In this document: positions 30,688 through 36,894 of the stretch, one piece after another
Position numbering within the stretch: position 1 is the first letter of the stretch
Layout: each line of letters begins with the position of its first letter
Assembly (NCBI GenBank): GCA_025937835.1
Contig: JAICQO010000031.1
Span: 1 to 62,842, forward strand
Source of the DNA: Polyangiaceae bacterium
Lineage (GTDB): Bacteria > Myxococcota_A > Polyangia > Polyangiales > Polyangiaceae
Direction: 5' to 3'
Length of the DNA stretch: 62,842 bases
Program-made: the position numbers and the translations under genes
The notes under the pieces: generated by a model
Told to the model about the DNA's origin: nothing
The model's input: only the letters and a program-made list of their open reading frames with translations
The model's database searches: none

Positions 30688-31302
30688 ATGACGCGCGCGT
30701 GGATCGCGGTAGTTTGCCTCGCAATCTCCTGTAAGAAGGACCCGGAGCCGCCGACGGTTCCGCCGCCCTTGCCGCCGCCGTCGAGCGCGCCGGCCGCACC
30801 GATCGCCCCGCCCGTCGACTCGCGCACGCCGCCGGCCGCGTTGCCGATTGCGGTGACGTGGGAAGATCCGCCGACCTTCCAGCGCCTTTCGGGCAACAAC
30901 CCGATGCGGAAGGCGACGTACAAGGTGCCGAAGGCCAAGGGCGACACCGAGGACGGGGAGCTCGCGGTTTTCTATTTCGGCCCGACGATGGGCGGCAGCA
31001 TCGAAGACAACGTGAATCGTTGGGTGAAGCAGTTCTCCGGTATCCAGCCCGACGACGTGAAGCGCGCCGATCGCGAGGCCAACGGCTTGAAGCAGCACAC
31101 GGTCGAGATCGAGAGCGGCACGTTCAGCTCGGGCATGCCCGGCGGCCCGACCCAGCCCAAGCCCGGCTACGGCCTGCTCGGCGGGATCGTGTCGTCGCCG
31201 AGCGGGGTCTATTTCTTCAAGCTCACCGGCCCGAGCAAGACGGTGAAGGCCGCGCGGGATCCATTTTTCAAGCTGCTGGATAGCGTGAAGGTTTCGAGCT
31301 GA
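30688..31302 (+). CDS. Putative lipoprotein of unknown function
   Basis: A 204-residue protein with a short signal and lipobox LAISC (Cys 15). A Pro-rich linker runs to about residue 50, and a compact beta-rich domain covers about 55-204 (VTWEDPPTFQRL, MRKATYKVPKAKGD, ELAVFYFGP, PSGVYFFKLTGP). The domain's conserved-looking strands suggest a real fold found in related bacteria, but I do not know a function. The gene ends 12 bases before the convergent VIT-VWA gene. Confidence 0.75.
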   Translation: MTRAWIAVVCLAISCKKDPEPPTVPPPLPPPSSAPAAPIAPPVDSRTPPAALPIAVTWEDPPTFQRLSGNNPMRKATYKVPKAKGDTEDGELAVFYFGPTMGGSIEDNVNRWVKQFSGIQPDDVKRADREANGLKQHTVEIESGTFSSGMPGGPTQPKPGYGLLGGIVSSPSGVYFFKLTGPSKTVKAARDPFFKLLDSVKVSS

Positions 31303-31314
31303 GCTCGGCTCGGT

Positions 31315-34300
31315 TCACAGCGGCACGAGACGCGAGCGCGTCTTGATGCTCACGAGCCCCACGGGCCGGCGCGTTTCGTCGAGTCGGAACGGGATCCGGC
31401 GTACCTGTCCGGCGGCGCTGACCACGATGGTGCCGCTGATTTCGCGCTCGGCCTCGGAGTCCGGGCGCACGACCTCGATCACGTAGTCGCCCGGCTTGGC
31501 TCCGCGCACCGACAAGCCCTCGCTCGACGCCGAGGTCACGTCGCGCGCGAAGATCACCGCCCTGGTCGGCGCCCCGAGCCACGAGATGCGATGGCCATCG
31601 GGATCGAGCAGCGACAGATCGATGTCAGCGCCAGAGTCCCAAGTGGCCTCGAGCTTCAGGTCACCCGCGAGCTGGGCGCTCGGCTCGGGGGTCTTGCGTG
31701 ACAGGCGCTCGGCGCTGGCGCGCAGGGCCGGTGCCCCGGCGAGCAGGCGCTCGGCGAGCTCCGGCTCACCCGCTTCGCGACTGCAGCGCGCGGCGTCGGC
31801 GAGCAGCGCCGCGTCGTCGCGACGTAGCTCGGCTGCGGAGACGAGGTGCCGGCAGCCGAGCGCCGCGCGCCCGGCCCAGCGCTGCAGCCGCTCGAGCCGC
31901 CGCTGCGCGCTCACGTCACCGGGGCGCACATCGACGACGCTGCCGAGCAAGCGGATCGCGCGCTCGCGCTCGCCGCGCCGCGCCGCCAGATCGGCGCGTG
32001 CCGTGAGCGCCTCCGGATCGAGCGGATCCTTCTCCACCCAGCCGGCGACGACGTGTTCGGCCCGCTCGAGCTCGCCGGCGAGCGACAAGAGGACGTACAG
32101 CTTGCGCACGGCTTCTCGGCGGTTCGGATTCTGCGCGGCGTCCTGCTCGGCGCGCGCCATGGCGTCGCCGCTCGCCTGCGCGGGGACCCGACGGCCATCC
32201 GAGACTTCTCCGAAGCGCTCCCAGATCCGGCGCATCGGGACGAGCCGGCGAGGCTCCGACACCCACGCGCCGTCGAGCGCGAGCGGGTTCGGCTGCGGCT
32301 GGGCGCGCCGGCGCGGCAGCGCGTTTTCTTCAGGCTTTCGAGGCGTCATGGCCGGGGCGGGGGGCGCGGCGGCGTACTCGCGCCTCTCCTCGCCACGGCT
32401 CGAACGCTTGGCGCGCGGGGCACCCGCGCTGATCTCCTGCTCCAGGATCGCGTCGGCCTTGGGCGCGGACTCTGCGGCGAAGCCGTCGTCCGACAGGGCG
32501 TCGAAGCCGGCGCCCGAGCCGCCCAGCGCGCGCCCGTCCGCCAGGGCAACGCTCTCGCCCTCCGCTTCCTCTTCACCGGTCCAGATCGGCGTCGTGCGCT
32601 GGTTGTCGAGGCCGAAGGCCTTGAACATGGCCGGGCTCTCGAGCACGAGCAGCGACGTGAACCGGCTGGCGACATTGAACTGACTGGAGAGCGCGAGCGC
32701 CGTGCGCCTCGCCTCGGGATCGTCCTTGCGCTCCAGGTCGCGGATGCGCAGCGCCGCGTATTGGCGCGGCACGAAGGCGTTGCCGTCGTTCGAGGTCGCG
32801 GCCAGCCGGAGCGGGTAGCGGCGCTCGAATCGTGCGCCTCCGAGCGTGCCGCGCAACACCACGTCGCCCGTGACCTCGCGACCGCTCATGCGCGCGCCGA
32901 GCAGCGCCTCTCCTCCGGCAGGGATGGCGTCCAGGAGCTCGGGAGACGCCGCGTAGAGTCCCGGAGGCAGCTCCACCTCGACGTCGCGCAGCGCCTTTCC
33001 GTAGGCGGCGCCTAGCACGGCGTGCGCCGTGTCCGTCAGCGGCGCGCCCGGCGCGTACACGAGGGAAACGCCGCCGCCCGCGCGCGACAGCGCTGCCAGG
33101 ACGTCGGAATCGGCTTCCACTCCCACCCCGACGCTGGTCAGCTGCGCGTCTCTCGGCAAGAGCCCGGCGATCGCTCGCTCGAGCTCGGCCGGGCGCGTCG
33201 GGCCCATCGTCGGCGCGCCGTCACCGATGAACACGAGCCGCGCCGCCCGCTCGCCGCGCTCGGCGAGGGCGCGGTAACCGGCCTCGATCGCGCGCACCGG
33301 ATCCGACGCACCGTCGGCCTCGATGCCTCCGAGAAAGCCGAGCACGCGGCTCTCCGCGTCCGCGCCGGGCTTTTCGAGGCCGCCGGGCGCCGTGCGGCAT
33401 TCGCTGTCGCAGGCGAGCACCACCAGGCGGTCATTCGGATCGAGCTCGCGCGCGAGCCGCCCGGCGAGCTTCTTTGCGCGCGTGTAGCTTTCGCCGAACA
33501 TCGAGCGGCTCGAGTCGACGACCACGGCAAACGCACGGCGCGCGCCGTCGGCGGTGCGTGGCAGCTCCGGTCGTAGCGCGAGGGTGACGTAGGGCGCCGC
33601 CGAGTCCGGGACCGCGCTCGCGCCGCTCGTGCTCGGCGCCGTGCTCCCGCTCGTGGCGTAGGCCCAGGCCTTGAGCTCGGCGCCGGGCTCGGTCAGGCCG
33701 TACTCGAGGACGAGGTCGCCGCTCGGGGCGAAGTCACGCCGCTCCATGCCGAGCTCGAGCGCCTCGCCGCCGTCCTTGCGCGTGATGTCGTAACCGTAGC
33801 TCTGGACGCCGAGCGCGCGATCGTGGCCGCGTACGCGCGCATCGAAGCTGAAATGTCCGACGCGCGTCGTCGCGCTCGGATCGTGCGCGAGCGGGTAGAC
33901 GTAGCGCCGGACGTCGCCGGCCGGCTTCAACATCTGGGTGTATGCGAGCACGATCCGCCGCGACCCCCGCTTCGGGATGGGAAAGATCCTGAGCTCGAAG
34001 CGACCGCCCCGCTGCCACTCGAGGAGCGCCGGATCCTTCCAGGGGCCCGGCACCCACACGATCTCTTCGCGCGGGCGCGGCGCGTTCTTGGCGGAGTTGA
34101 CGATCGCGCCGCGCCAGATCGCCGCAGCTCGATCGCGATCCACGAAAGCGCCGTCGAGCAGCTTTCCGTCGACGTCGAGCGCGAGCCGCTCGATCTGAGC
34201 GTCGGGGGGCAGCGGGAAGCGGTAGATGCCTTCCAGCGTCTGATCGGTGCCGTTGCTGAACACCTCCTCGATCTCGGTGCGGGCGACGGCGCCCGCGATG

Positions 34301-35802
34301 CGCACCCGCACCGCGTGGGAGGTGAGCCGAACGCTGCCCTTGAGCTCGTTGTCGGTGCCCGGCTTCTTGGCGCGGAGCTCGCCGAGCCCGCGCGAGCCGA
34401 GCTCGTCGGTGGCTTCTTTCTCGGAGAAACTCAGCGCTCCGCTCGGGTTCGACGAGGCGCTGACTCGAGCCCCGTTCTGGCCGAGGCGGACCTGTTCGCC
34501 GGCCCGTGCCCGGGTCCTCGGGCCGTTGGCCCCGAACAGATCGGCGCCGCCGCGCGTGACCTCGATCACGGTGTCGTCGCCAGCCGAGCGCAGGTTGAAC
34601 GTGCCGGGGCCGAGCTTGCCGCCCCCGTGGCGCACCGTGAGGCCGAGCTCTTCGCCCTCTTCTACGTCGGCGACCAGCATTCCGCGCAAGAGCTCTATCG
34701 CCGTCTTGCCCTCCGGCGACAGCACGAAGACCGTGTTTCGATCGACCAGCACACGCACGCCCTCGTTCAGCTCGATATCGGCGCGCGTCACGGCGTCGCT
34801 CTCGATCCGTGCGCCGTTCGGGATCCGATCGCCGCGAGCGAGGCGCTCGCAGTCCCCATTCGCGTCGCACGCGCGGAGCCCCGGGCCGTCTCCGACGCTG
34901 CTCAGCCGCTCGACCCGTGCACCGCGTTTGCTGATCACGCCGCCGGGGTGCGAGCCGCCGAACCAGACGCCGAGCCCGAGCGCAGCCACCACGCCGAGCG
35001 CGACGGTCAGCGCGATCGCCCTCGATTTGCGGGCGATTCCGGGAAACGCCGGCGCGTCCGCGGGCGCGGGAGCCTGCGTGGTGGTGTGAGCGGACTGGGC
35101 GGCGAGCGCCTGATTGAGCTTTTGCTCCAGCGCCGGTGACTCGCTCACGTCGTCGCCGGCTTGGCGCACGCGATCGATCGCGGCGGACAGATCATGCTTC
35201 GAGTCCCGACAGGCGTCGCAATCCGAGAGGTGCTCGCGCAGCGCGGGTGACAGCCGGTTCTCGATCGCTCGGAGCGCGTCGCTCTCGAGCTTGCGACACG
35301 CCTCGGTCTTGCCCTGGCTCTTGCCGGCAAGCTGTGACAGGCCGCGCGAGAGCCGGTTCTCGACCTCGCCGGCGCGGCTGCGACACAGCACCGCGATCTC
35401 CGCGACGTCGAGCCCGGTCAGGAAGCGCAGCACGAGCGCTTCCCGTTCGCTCGGCCGCAGCCGATCGAGCAGGGCACGCGTCGCGGTCGCGCTCCCCGCG
35501 TCGTCCGCGAGAGGCGAGGGCGCTCGTCGCTCGAGCCGCGCCCAGAGTCGCTTGCGCCCGAGCTCGTAGCCACGCCCGAGCTCGCTCTTCAACTCCGCGG
35601 CGGGGCGTGCGTCGCCGGGCCCGAGCTCCGAGCTCAGCGCGTCCACCTCACCGGCCGAGCCGAGCAAGGCCATCCAGGTGCGTCGCAAGCTGAAGGCCGG
35701 CTCGCGCACGGGGGGCATCGGCTCGGTCACTGGCGCGGGCGCCGTCGCGGTTTCGGTGTGGCTGGATGTAGGTACGGGCGGCGCATCGTCTGTCGGGGTC
35801 AT
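31315..35802 (-). CDS. Sigma-70 region-4-like / zf-HC2 / FecR-like / VIT / VWA / TPR fusion protein
   Basis: A 1495-residue protein. Residues about 36-100 resemble a decayed ECF sigma region 2. Residues 110-160 read as sigma-70 region 4 (RLRPSEREALVLRFLTGLDVA). Residues 169-205 are an anti-sigma zf-HC2 finger (C169, H191xxxC195xxC198). One membrane segment at 261-283 follows, then a FecR-like domain (about 300-445) with RDGLL-like IELLRGMLVADVEEG. A VIT domain (about 470-590) precedes a VWA domain (about 756-930) with intact MIDAS DSSRS at 763-767. The middle is Arg/Pro-rich, and the tail 1200-1370 is TPR-like, closing with a beta domain. This predicts cytoplasmic sigma/anti-sigma and periplasmic sensor parts in one chain. 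Family assignments are by eye. Confidence 0.85.
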   Translation of the reverse strand: MTPTDDAPPVPTSSHTETATAPAPVTEPMPPVREPAFSLRRTWMALLGSAGEVDALSSELGPGDARPAAELKSELGRGYELGRKRLWARLERRAPSPLADDAGSATATRALLDRLRPSEREALVLRFLTGLDVAEIAVLCRSRAGEVENRLSRGLSQLAGKSQGKTEACRKLESDALRAIENRLSPALREHLSDCDACRDSKHDLSAAIDRVRQAGDDVSESPALEQKLNQALAAQSAHTTTQAPAPADAPAFPGIARKSRAIALTVALGVVAALGLGVWFGGSHPGGVISKRGARVERLSSVGDGPGLRACDANGDCERLARGDRIPNGARIESDAVTRADIELNEGVRVLVDRNTVFVLSPEGKTAIELLRGMLVADVEEGEELGLTVRHGGGKLGPGTFNLRSAGDDTVIEVTRGGADLFGANGPRTRARAGEQVRLGQNGARVSASSNPSGALSFSEKEATDELGSRGLGELRAKKPGTDNELKGSVRLTSHAVRVRIAGAVARTEIEEVFSNGTDQTLEGIYRFPLPPDAQIERLALDVDGKLLDGAFVDRDRAAAIWRGAIVNSAKNAPRPREEIVWVPGPWKDPALLEWQRGGRFELRIFPIPKRGSRRIVLAYTQMLKPAGDVRRYVYPLAHDPSATTRVGHFSFDARVRGHDRALGVQSYGYDITRKDGGEALELGMERRDFAPSGDLVLEYGLTEPGAELKAWAYATSGSTAPSTSGASAVPDSAAPYVTLALRPELPRTADGARRAFAVVVDSSRSMFGESYTRAKKLAGRLARELDPNDRLVVLACDSECRTAPGGLEKPGADAESRVLGFLGGIEADGASDPVRAIEAGYRALAERGERAARLVFIGDGAPTMGPTRPAELERAIAGLLPRDAQLTSVGVGVEADSDVLAALSRAGGGVSLVYAPGAPLTDTAHAVLGAAYGKALRDVEVELPPGLYAASPELLDAIPAGGEALLGARMSGREVTGDVVLRGTLGGARFERRYPLRLAATSNDGNAFVPRQYAALRIRDLERKDDPEARRTALALSSQFNVASRFTSLLVLESPAMFKAFGLDNQRTTPIWTGEEEAEGESVALADGRALGGSGAGFDALSDDGFAAESAPKADAILEQEISAGAPRAKRSSRGEERREYAAAPPAPAMTPRKPEENALPRRRAQPQPNPLALDGAWVSEPRRLVPMRRIWERFGEVSDGRRVPAQASGDAMARAEQDAAQNPNRREAVRKLYVLLSLAGELERAEHVVAGWVEKDPLDPEALTARADLAARRGERERAIRLLGSVVDVRPGDVSAQRRLERLQRWAGRAALGCRHLVSAAELRRDDAALLADAARCSREAGEPELAERLLAGAPALRASAERLSRKTPEPSAQLAGDLKLEATWDSGADIDLSLLDPDGHRISWLGAPTRAVIFARDVTSASSEGLSVRGAKPGDYVIEVVRPDSEAEREISGTIVVSAAGQVRRIPFRLDETRRPVGLVSIKTRSRLVPL

Positions 35803-35961
35803 GGTGGCTCCAGGCTTCCGATCCGGAACGCTCGTCCCGGCCGGAGCTTTCAGAGACTCTGTGACGTCGCACAGGGACCGAAGATTTGGGCGGTCCCGCG
35901 ATTGTCCGCCGTAAACAATCTGGATTGGCGCGGGAGCGAAGCGCCGTCCTACGCTGCGCCC
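35803..35961. promoter_or_regulatory. Divergent promoter region between the VIT-VWA gene and fpg
   Basis: The 159-base gap separates two divergently read genes. It contains a 16-base interrupted palindrome CTGTG-ACGTCG-CACAG at 35859-35874 and a weaker one, ATTGT-N9-ACAAT, at 35901-35919. Either could be an operator. No clear -10/-35 pair is visible, so this is a region call, not a mapped promoter. Confidence 0.4.
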
Positions 35962-36894
35962 ATGCCGGAGCTTCCCGACGTCGTGGTGTACGTGGAGCGG
36001 CTCGTGGCGCGCTTCGGCGGCCAGCCAGTCGAGAACCTCCGCGTCAAGAGCCCGTTCGTGATCCGCACCTTCGATCCGCCGGCTTCAGCCGTCGTGGGTC
36101 GCAAGCTCGCATCCGCGTTCCGGGTCGGCAAGCGCATCGCGCTGGTCTTCGACCCGGAGCTCTACTTCGTCGTGCACTTGATGATCGCAGGCCGCTTTCA
36201 CCTCGCACCAAGCGGCAAGGCGCTCGGAAAGATCGCGCTGCTCGGCTTCGACTTTCCGGACGAGACCTTGCTCCTCACCGAAGCGGGAACCAAGAAGCGC
36301 GCCAGCGTGCACGTGGTCGCGACCCGGGAGGAAGCGCTCGCCCTCGGCCGCGGTGGCATCGAGCCGCTCGAGGCGACGCTCGAGGAGTTCGCCGGCGCAC
36401 TCAAGGCCGAGAACCACACCTTGAAGCGCGCGCTCACCGATCCTCGACTGTTCAGCGGTATCGGCAACGCGTACTCCGACGAGATCCTGTTCTGGTGCCG
36501 GCTCTCGCCGATGAAGCGCACGATCGATCTCGATCCAGAGACGATCGAGCGGCTGTACGACACCACGCGCCGCGTGCTCACGACCTGGGTCGAGCGTCTG
36601 CGCCTCGACGCGGGCGACGGCTTTCCCGAGAAGGTAACGGCGTTTCGCCCCGAGATGGCCGTTCACGGGCGCTACAAGCAGCCCTGCCCCGTCTGCGCGT
36701 CGCCCGTGCAGCGCATCGCCTACGCCAGCAACGAGGCCAACTACTGCGCGACTTGCCAGACGGGCGGCCGCTTGCTCGCCGATCGCGCGTTGTCGCGGCT
36801 GCTCCACGGTGACTGGCCGAAGACGCTCGAGGAGCTCGAAGAGTCCAAGGCACAGCGCGCCGCGAGCGTTCTGCCCTCGAAACCGGACAGCTGA
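35962..36894 (+). CDS. Formamidopyrimidine-DNA glycosylase family protein (Fpg/Nei)
   Basis: A 310-residue DNA repair glycosylase. The start PELPDV gives the catalytic Pro2 and Glu3 after Met removal. The middle has the HLMIAGRF and helix-two-turn-helix region (FSGIGNAYSDEILF, with the Asn-Ala block). A C-terminal C4 zinc finger appears in CPVCASPVQRIAYA and NYCATCQTGGR. It excises oxidised bases such as 8-oxoguanine or opens AP sites. The start is the only one that places Pro at position 2. It may be Fpg or a Nei-like enzyme. The gene stands alone, divergent from the VIT-VWA gene. Confidence 0.9.
   Translation: MPELPDVVVYVERLVARFGGQPVENLRVKSPFVIRTFDPPASAVVGRKLASAFRVGKRIALVFDPELYFVVHLMIAGRFHLAPSGKALGKIALLGFDFPDETLLLTEAGTKKRASVHVVATREEALALGRGGIEPLEATLEEFAGALKAENHTLKRALTDPRLFSGIGNAYSDEILFWCRLSPMKRTIDLDPETIERLYDTTRRVLTTWVERLRLDAGDGFPEKVTAFRPEMAVHGRYKQPCPVCASPVQRIAYASNEANYCATCQTGGRLLADRALSRLLHGDWPKTLEELEESKAQRAASVLPSKPDS

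Follow-up and report, generated by a model that had tools for sequence, protein, structure and literature searches.

In the window (62,842 nucleotides of a Polyangiaceae bacterium contig, to which all coordinates refer), an extracytoplasmic function (ECF) sigma factor gene and the neighboring anti-sigma-FecR-VIT-VWA-TPR gene are fused into one open reading frame, in which the sigma part has decayed. The fused gene sits where related bacteria carry the two genes as an operon, the promoter-like motif of these operons has disappeared in front of it, and its modules evolve at very uneven rates. We consider it probable that the operon fused in situ, that sigma signaling was lost, and that a periplasmic VIT-VWA-TPR protein was left with a vestigial cytoplasmic end. 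In particular, we infer that sigma activity is gone and that the function left to the protein is that of its VIT-VWA part.

A single reading frame joins sigma, anti-sigma, FecR, VIT and VWA modules

The gene and its parts are as follows.

31315..35802, minus strand: fused gene of 1,495 amino acids (sigma remnant, anti-sigma domain, transmembrane segment, FecR, VIT, VWA, linker, TPR, C-terminal domain)
35803..36202, minus strand: region upstream of the fused gene, promoter-like motif absent
35808..35811, minus strand: GGAG, ribosome-binding-like sequence, 5 nt 5' of the ATG at 35802
35527..35703, minus strand: sigma region 2 remnant, residues 34-92; region 2.2 core lost, 6-amino-acid deletion
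35395..35496, minus strand: first half of sigma region 4, residues 103-136; all family-conserved positions retained
35323..35394, minus strand: -35 reading half of sigma region 4, residues 137-160; degenerate
35107..35307, minus strand: zinc-type class I anti-sigma domain, residues 166-232; ligands C169, H191, C195 and C198; fast-evolving
34954..35022, minus strand: membrane segment, residues 261-283; Kyte-Doolittle 2.3, topology by homology
34483..34935, minus strand: FecR-like periplasmic domain, residues 290-440, from Pfam and the structural model; fast-evolving
33940..34344, minus strand: VIT domain, residues 487-621; normally conserved, 59-82% identity to relatives
33058..33537, minus strand: VWA domain, residues 756-915; MIDAS intact
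31693..32292, minus strand: TPR-like helical repeats, residues 1171-1370; normally conserved
31318..31692, minus strand: C-terminal domain, residues 1371-1495; weakly PPC-like (14 bits, under cut-off)

The frame runs from 35802 to 31315 without any internal stop. Its third-position GC lies between 0.77 and 0.97 over residues 1-210 and is high beyond them too. The open reading frame list and the Pfam matches agree with the position and module order given by a first-pass annotation of this DNA, and with its central claim that one chain carries sigma region 4, anti-sigma, FecR and VIT-VWA modules. The FecR-like, VIT and VWA modules that it had read were each above the Pfam cut-off or well scored, with matches to FecR at residues 332-419 (24.1 bits, cut-off 24), to VIT at 493-621 (53.8 bits) and to VWA_3 at 760-912 (27.5 bits, cut-off 27). 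The TPR-like tail fared less well: TPR_19 does match residues 1213-1272, but with 22.2 bits it remains under the cut-off of 25. No receiver domain was found among the Pfam matches of the protein. The membrane segment proposed at residues 261-283 coincides with a hydropathy peak at 263-281; the positive-inside rule is neutral there (3 versus 4 charges), and the orientation of the chain was taken from homology.

Relatives encode the same modules in two adjacent genes

We compared the fused gene with related loci sampled from the same genus out to other Myxococcota families (L004 to L018, L059 to L067 and L080 to L093). In 33 of them, including 3 from the same genus, the sigma factor is a separate ECF gene followed by an anti-sigma-FecR-VIT-VWA-TPR gene, the two typically overlapping by 4 nt or the second starting just past the sigma stop. 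The order of modules for which the first-pass annotation had proposed a survey is thus common to the 33 relatives, but spread over two genes there, and among the loci compared the fusion occurs in the window only. L006 and L081 have no adjacent sigma gene; L062 is cut by a contig edge, as is the N terminus of the gene in genome G001. A candidate second fusion, in genome G044, was rejected, its halves being in the same frame with a stop codon between them. In L011 and L018 both frames agree, with one stop and one codon between the genes. Since a single TGA and one codon separate the genes of L011, a fusion could arise easily. The alignment used here took L011 and L018, each translated through its TGA, as anchors, and MAFFT alignments that misplaced the anti-sigma rows were set aside.

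The nearest available relatives, which belong to the same genus, are about 46% identical to the fused protein (45-46% for the large gene, over about residues 165-1495). One of these loci, L061 in genome G003, has the same neighbors on both sides as the window, in the order MBL-fold, sigma, anti-sigma, lipoprotein, TerC and malQ, which identifies the fused gene as the operon's in-situ orthologue. The six nearest genes in the window encode malQ, TerC, the lipoprotein-like protein, Fpg, the MBL-fold protein and CorA; no TonB-dependent receptor gene is among them. The two immediate neighbors are the following.

30688..31302, plus strand: small lipoprotein-like gene, convergent; no Pfam match, syntenic with L061
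35965..36894, plus strand: Fpg/MutM-type DNA glycosylase gene, divergent; L059, L060 and L093 have a homologue on the stretch that carries the operon

The lipoprotein-like gene has conserved counterparts (50-66% identity) near the operons of L061, L062 and L007, and the Fpg gene lies close to the operon in L059 and L060. Two further genomes of the genus, G002 (98% complete) and G004, gave no match to the fused protein; from this absence, the whole sigma/anti-sigma-VIT-VWA system appears dispensable.

The sigma part has lost region 2 and the -35 reading helix

The decay of region 2 that had been suspected at the N terminus was confirmed. Residues 1-108 have no Pfam match, including to Sigma70_r2, which scores 52-64 bits in the three sigma factors of relatives that were tested. 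Scored against a profile built from the sigma factors of relatives, these residues reach only 2.9 bits, at positions 38-57, and the region 2 remnant retains 9 of 24 family-conserved positions. An intact region 2 was sought in the other frames and 5' of the ATG, and none was found. Furthermore, the linker of the remnant is about 30 residues shorter than in relatives, as judged from the alignment.

Over the whole sigma factor, 48 positions reach at least 85% conservation among the relatives. Of these, 24 are retained in the window, while every relative retains 36 to 48, and nearly all of them 42 to 48. The next lowest, L084 (G024:C24), encodes a separate, strongly diverged sigma factor with 36 of the 48 positions and has no promoter motif; it may represent a half-way stage of decay.

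Region 4 is better preserved. Sigma70_r4_2 matches residues 109-158 with 37.6 bits when the N-terminal part is the query (cut-off 25.7), in keeping with the region-4-like helix-turn-helix previously placed at 110-160. AlphaFold predicts region 4 confidently (pLDDT blocks of 86-95) and the region 2 remnant with middling confidence. In VIA-align, region 4 superposes on that of SigD (3vfz) with a Z score of 11.3 and 0.9 A over 62 residues, and the sigma part on PhyR (2lfw) with a Z score of 9.4 and 5.3 A over 118 residues. In the -35 reading helix, though, the RKR of the family reads ENR. Of the hallmarks of an ECF sigma factor, the window protein thus has the region 4 fold and lacks both a region 2 with the 2.2 motif and the RKR helix of the family. 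No other sigma factor of the same family was found among the top 19 ECF matches of the genome itself, the best of which reaches 81 bits, compared to 163-262 bits with the best partner for nearly all family members.

The conserved upstream motif is missing

The sigma genes of the relatives are preceded by the motif cGGTCACGAA-N-CACATGG, in which the distance from GGTCAC to CACATG is exactly 18 nt in 27 of 32 loci. When each site was scored with itself left out, 26 of 27 fell within 14-37 bits. When 446 kb were scanned, all sites of at least 20 bits lay directly upstream of sigma genes of the family, two of them in L080. Its position and spacing suggest that GGTCAC-N18-CACATG is a candidate autoregulatory ECF promoter. 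Upstream of the fused gene, the best site scores 5.0 bits (shuffled sequences reach 7.4), versus mostly 14-41 bits in relatives. In L081 (genome G032, minus strand), the anti-sigma gene starts at 2221 of the reverse complement, and a motif of 16.1 bits stands just before it; a sigma factor acting in trans and a recent sigma loss are both candidate readings of this locus.

The anti-sigma domain and FecR evolve fast, the VIT-VWA-TPR part does not

The first-pass annotation had read a zf-HC2 finger after the sigma part. All four of its ligands are present, and their columns are C/H/C/C in 27-28 of 33 aligned relatives; the profile, however, gives 14.5 bits, below its cut-off of 22.2, as it does in relatives, where it is equally low (12.3-14.4 bits). 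In L013 and L014, the zinc ligand cysteines at the anti-sigma N termini are substituted (DDDARD and DDDEARD), and the sigma gene is intact.

We then measured terminal branches per region on a topology fixed from the VIT-VWA tree, which has weak nodes and on which long branches are near saturation. The window branch is 2.78 for region 2 (rank 1 of 30, median 0.26), 2.75 for region 4 (rank 1 of 30), 2.36 for the anti-sigma domain (rank 2 of 32) and 1.49 for FecR (rank 3 of 33). Elsewhere it ranks ordinarily (VIT 22, VWA 15, TPR 24). Overall, the sigma, anti-sigma and FecR parts of the window evolve 3 to 6 times faster than the VIT-VWA part.

A similar picture was seen in L006 (5968-9996), an anti-sigma-FecR-VIT-VWA gene in which the anti-sigma domain and FecR are fast as well. 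There is no sigma gene upstream of it, and the motif was looked for there and not found, so that L006 looks like another sigma loss. Because the two domains are fast in both the window and L006, the anti-sigma domain and FecR appear to relax once the sigma factor goes, while VIT-VWA-TPR does not.

The VIT-VWA part is normally conserved

The VWA domain had been described as carrying an intact MIDAS at residues 763-767, and indeed D763-x-S765-x-S767 is complete. In addition, C798 and C802 are invariant in all 33 aligned relatives. An AlphaFold model of residues 290-1390 reached a pTM of 0.80. The best Foldseek match of this model was inter-alpha-inhibitor heavy chain 1 (ITIH1; E value 1.6e-26, target TM score 0.60), and lower matches included PupR and a Parabacteroides anti-sigma protein. 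The genome also encodes a FecR-VIT-VWA paralogue (G000:C152:8652-10643) that begins with a lipoprotein-like signal and lacks any sigma or anti-sigma part. We rejected it as a partner gene of the fused protein, as it has no sigma part and no zinc finger; it would fit with VIT-VWA having a function of its own.

A probable in-situ fusion followed by loss of sigma signaling

The architecture of the two-gene relatives suggests that their cytoplasmic anti-sigma domain holds the sigma factor while the periplasmic part senses a signal, and, together with the motif, that the freed sigma factor would transcribe its own operon from GGTCAC-N18-CACATG. In the lineage of the window, the stop codon between the two genes would have been lost. 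The sigma part would then have lost region 2, with which it bound RNA polymerase, as well as the helix that reads the -35 element and its promoter, and sigma signaling would be gone entirely. The part still under normal constraint would be a membrane-anchored periplasmic VIT-VWA-TPR protein, to which the sigma stub, the anti-sigma domain and FecR would form a vestigial lead-in, presumably kept in frame because no start codon is obvious from which the downstream part alone could be translated. Of the two alternatives left by the first-pass annotation, an active covalent membrane-bound regulator or a sigma part that is only a decayed remnant, the second is thus the one that is supported. The first is not, given the loss of region 2, the -35 helix and the motif, and the fast evolution of the sigma, anti-sigma and FecR parts, which resembles that of the sigma-less L006.

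One observation counts against a mere vestige. The first half of region 4 (residues 103-136) still has all 11 of its conserved positions, and none of the four zinc ligands of the anti-sigma domain has been replaced, which pure drift would not predict. In the -35 reading half (conserved columns in 139-159), only 4 of 13 positions are retained (Fisher p 0.0006, an exploratory test made after the pattern had been noticed). Relative to the family's own level of match, residues 103-136 stand at 0.80-0.84, compared to 0.25-0.48 for residues 137-160 and 0.38-0.57 for region 2, and the decaying sigma factor of L084 has no such split within region 4. The first half of region 4 could therefore have outlived its transcription function as a covalent plug, a pseudo-sigma partner occupying the anti-sigma domain of its own chain. 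Such a plug, an intramolecular counterpart of the sigma mimicry of PhyR, would either stabilize this domain or keep it from titrating further ECF sigma factors, and 44 more ECF-like matches were found in the genome. In known complexes, class I anti-sigma domains contact sigma region 4 with their helix 1 (PMC7406223), and the region 4 fold is confidently predicted. On the other hand, the anti-sigma domain is itself fast-evolving, and in the model of the whole chain, whose pTM is only 0.37, the last region 4 helix and anti-sigma helix 1 are joined without a break (144-183), so that any docking would be putative. We regard the plug as a rather doubtful proposal. If it were true, an anti-sigma factor would have become an inert membrane anchor or a switch with a non-transcription output.

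Alternatively, the protein could be an active single-chain factor of the IutY type, in which proteolysis would free the N-terminal sigma part to start transcription. It shares with IutY the order of sigma part, transmembrane segment and periplasmic FecR-like part, and its region 4 is above the Pfam cut-off. However, IutY itself has a working sigma domain (PMC5411451), whereas here region 2 gives no score, the 2.2 core is deleted, RKR has become ENR and the promoter motif is lost. The sequence argues against the release of a functional sigma factor, and we judge this explanation very unlikely.

Returning to in-situ fusion and decay, two further challenges carry little weight. A one-component membrane regulator like ToxR or CadC, whose region 4 helix-turn-helix would bind DNA directly and have no role as a sigma factor, would make use of the fold that is kept, but the DNA-reading half is the most degenerate (0.25 of the family level at residues 137-145, the lowest stretch of region 4), which makes it highly improbable. 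Just as improbable is a sequencing or assembly error (a lost stop or a frameshift) joining two separate genes: the fusion is known from one assembly of 227 contigs and a single indel would join the many relatives' genes that overlap by 4 nt, but sigma decay and motif loss extend across hundreds of bases, third-position GC is unbroken over the sigma/anti-sigma joint, and no ATG was seen near residue 169 in any frame.

Comparison with known systems

The first-pass annotation knew of no described system with this layout. This is true of the full combination: in the literature searched we found no chain that combines a VIT-VWA-TPR exterior with the remnant of a dead sigma factor. It does not hold for its core, as sigma and anti-sigma parts in a single chain are already known. 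The parts and origin of the fused protein can be considered understood. In IutY of Pseudomonas putida (ECF243), one chain comprises an ECF sigma factor, a membrane segment and a periplasmic anti-sigma part of the cell-surface-signaling type (PMC5411451, PMC8999054), and in the ECF48, ECF52 and ECF53 groups, including SCO4117, the sigma factor is fused to a zinc-finger anti-sigma domain and a transmembrane helix (PMC8999054). The fused protein resembles IutY in carrying sigma and anti-sigma parts in one chain across the membrane. It differs in its zf-HC2-type anti-sigma domain, its added VIT-VWA-TPR part and the lack of an adjacent TonB receptor gene; moreover, IutY has an intact sigma factor that is released by Prc/RseP and serves aerobactin uptake, while the window protein has lost region 2. 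It resembles SCO4117 and the ECF48, ECF52 and ECF53 proteins in the joining of a sigma factor to a zinc-finger anti-sigma domain and a transmembrane helix, but these are actinobacterial, with an intact sigma factor and other extracytoplasmic parts. All of these systems retain a working or presumably working sigma factor, whereas that of the window is degenerate.

PhyR provides a precedent for a sigma-derived domain that has no transcription function and can bind an anti-sigma factor, such binding being only putative in the window. PhyR has a receiver domain; the fused protein has none and carries an anti-sigma domain in its own chain instead. With ITIH1, the periplasmic part shares the VIT-VWA fold at about 15% identity, but ITIH1 is a plasma protein without a regulatory end.

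The closest counterpart remains the two-gene operon of Myxococcota, which has the same modules in the same order, with a separate, intact sigma factor and the motif upstream. We found no account of this operon in the literature searched. Compared to this operon, the fused gene would be a signaling system caught at the point where its output disappears and its extracytoplasmic part persists, with matching losses in the sigma factor, the motif, the anti-sigma domain and FecR. It thereby offers a comparative test of what each part does, suggesting that the anti-sigma domain and FecR serve sigma control and that VIT-VWA-TPR has a function of its own. Overall, these data point to a widespread ECF operon in Myxococcota whose sensor part is of the VIT-VWA type and whose candidate promoter is strongly conserved.
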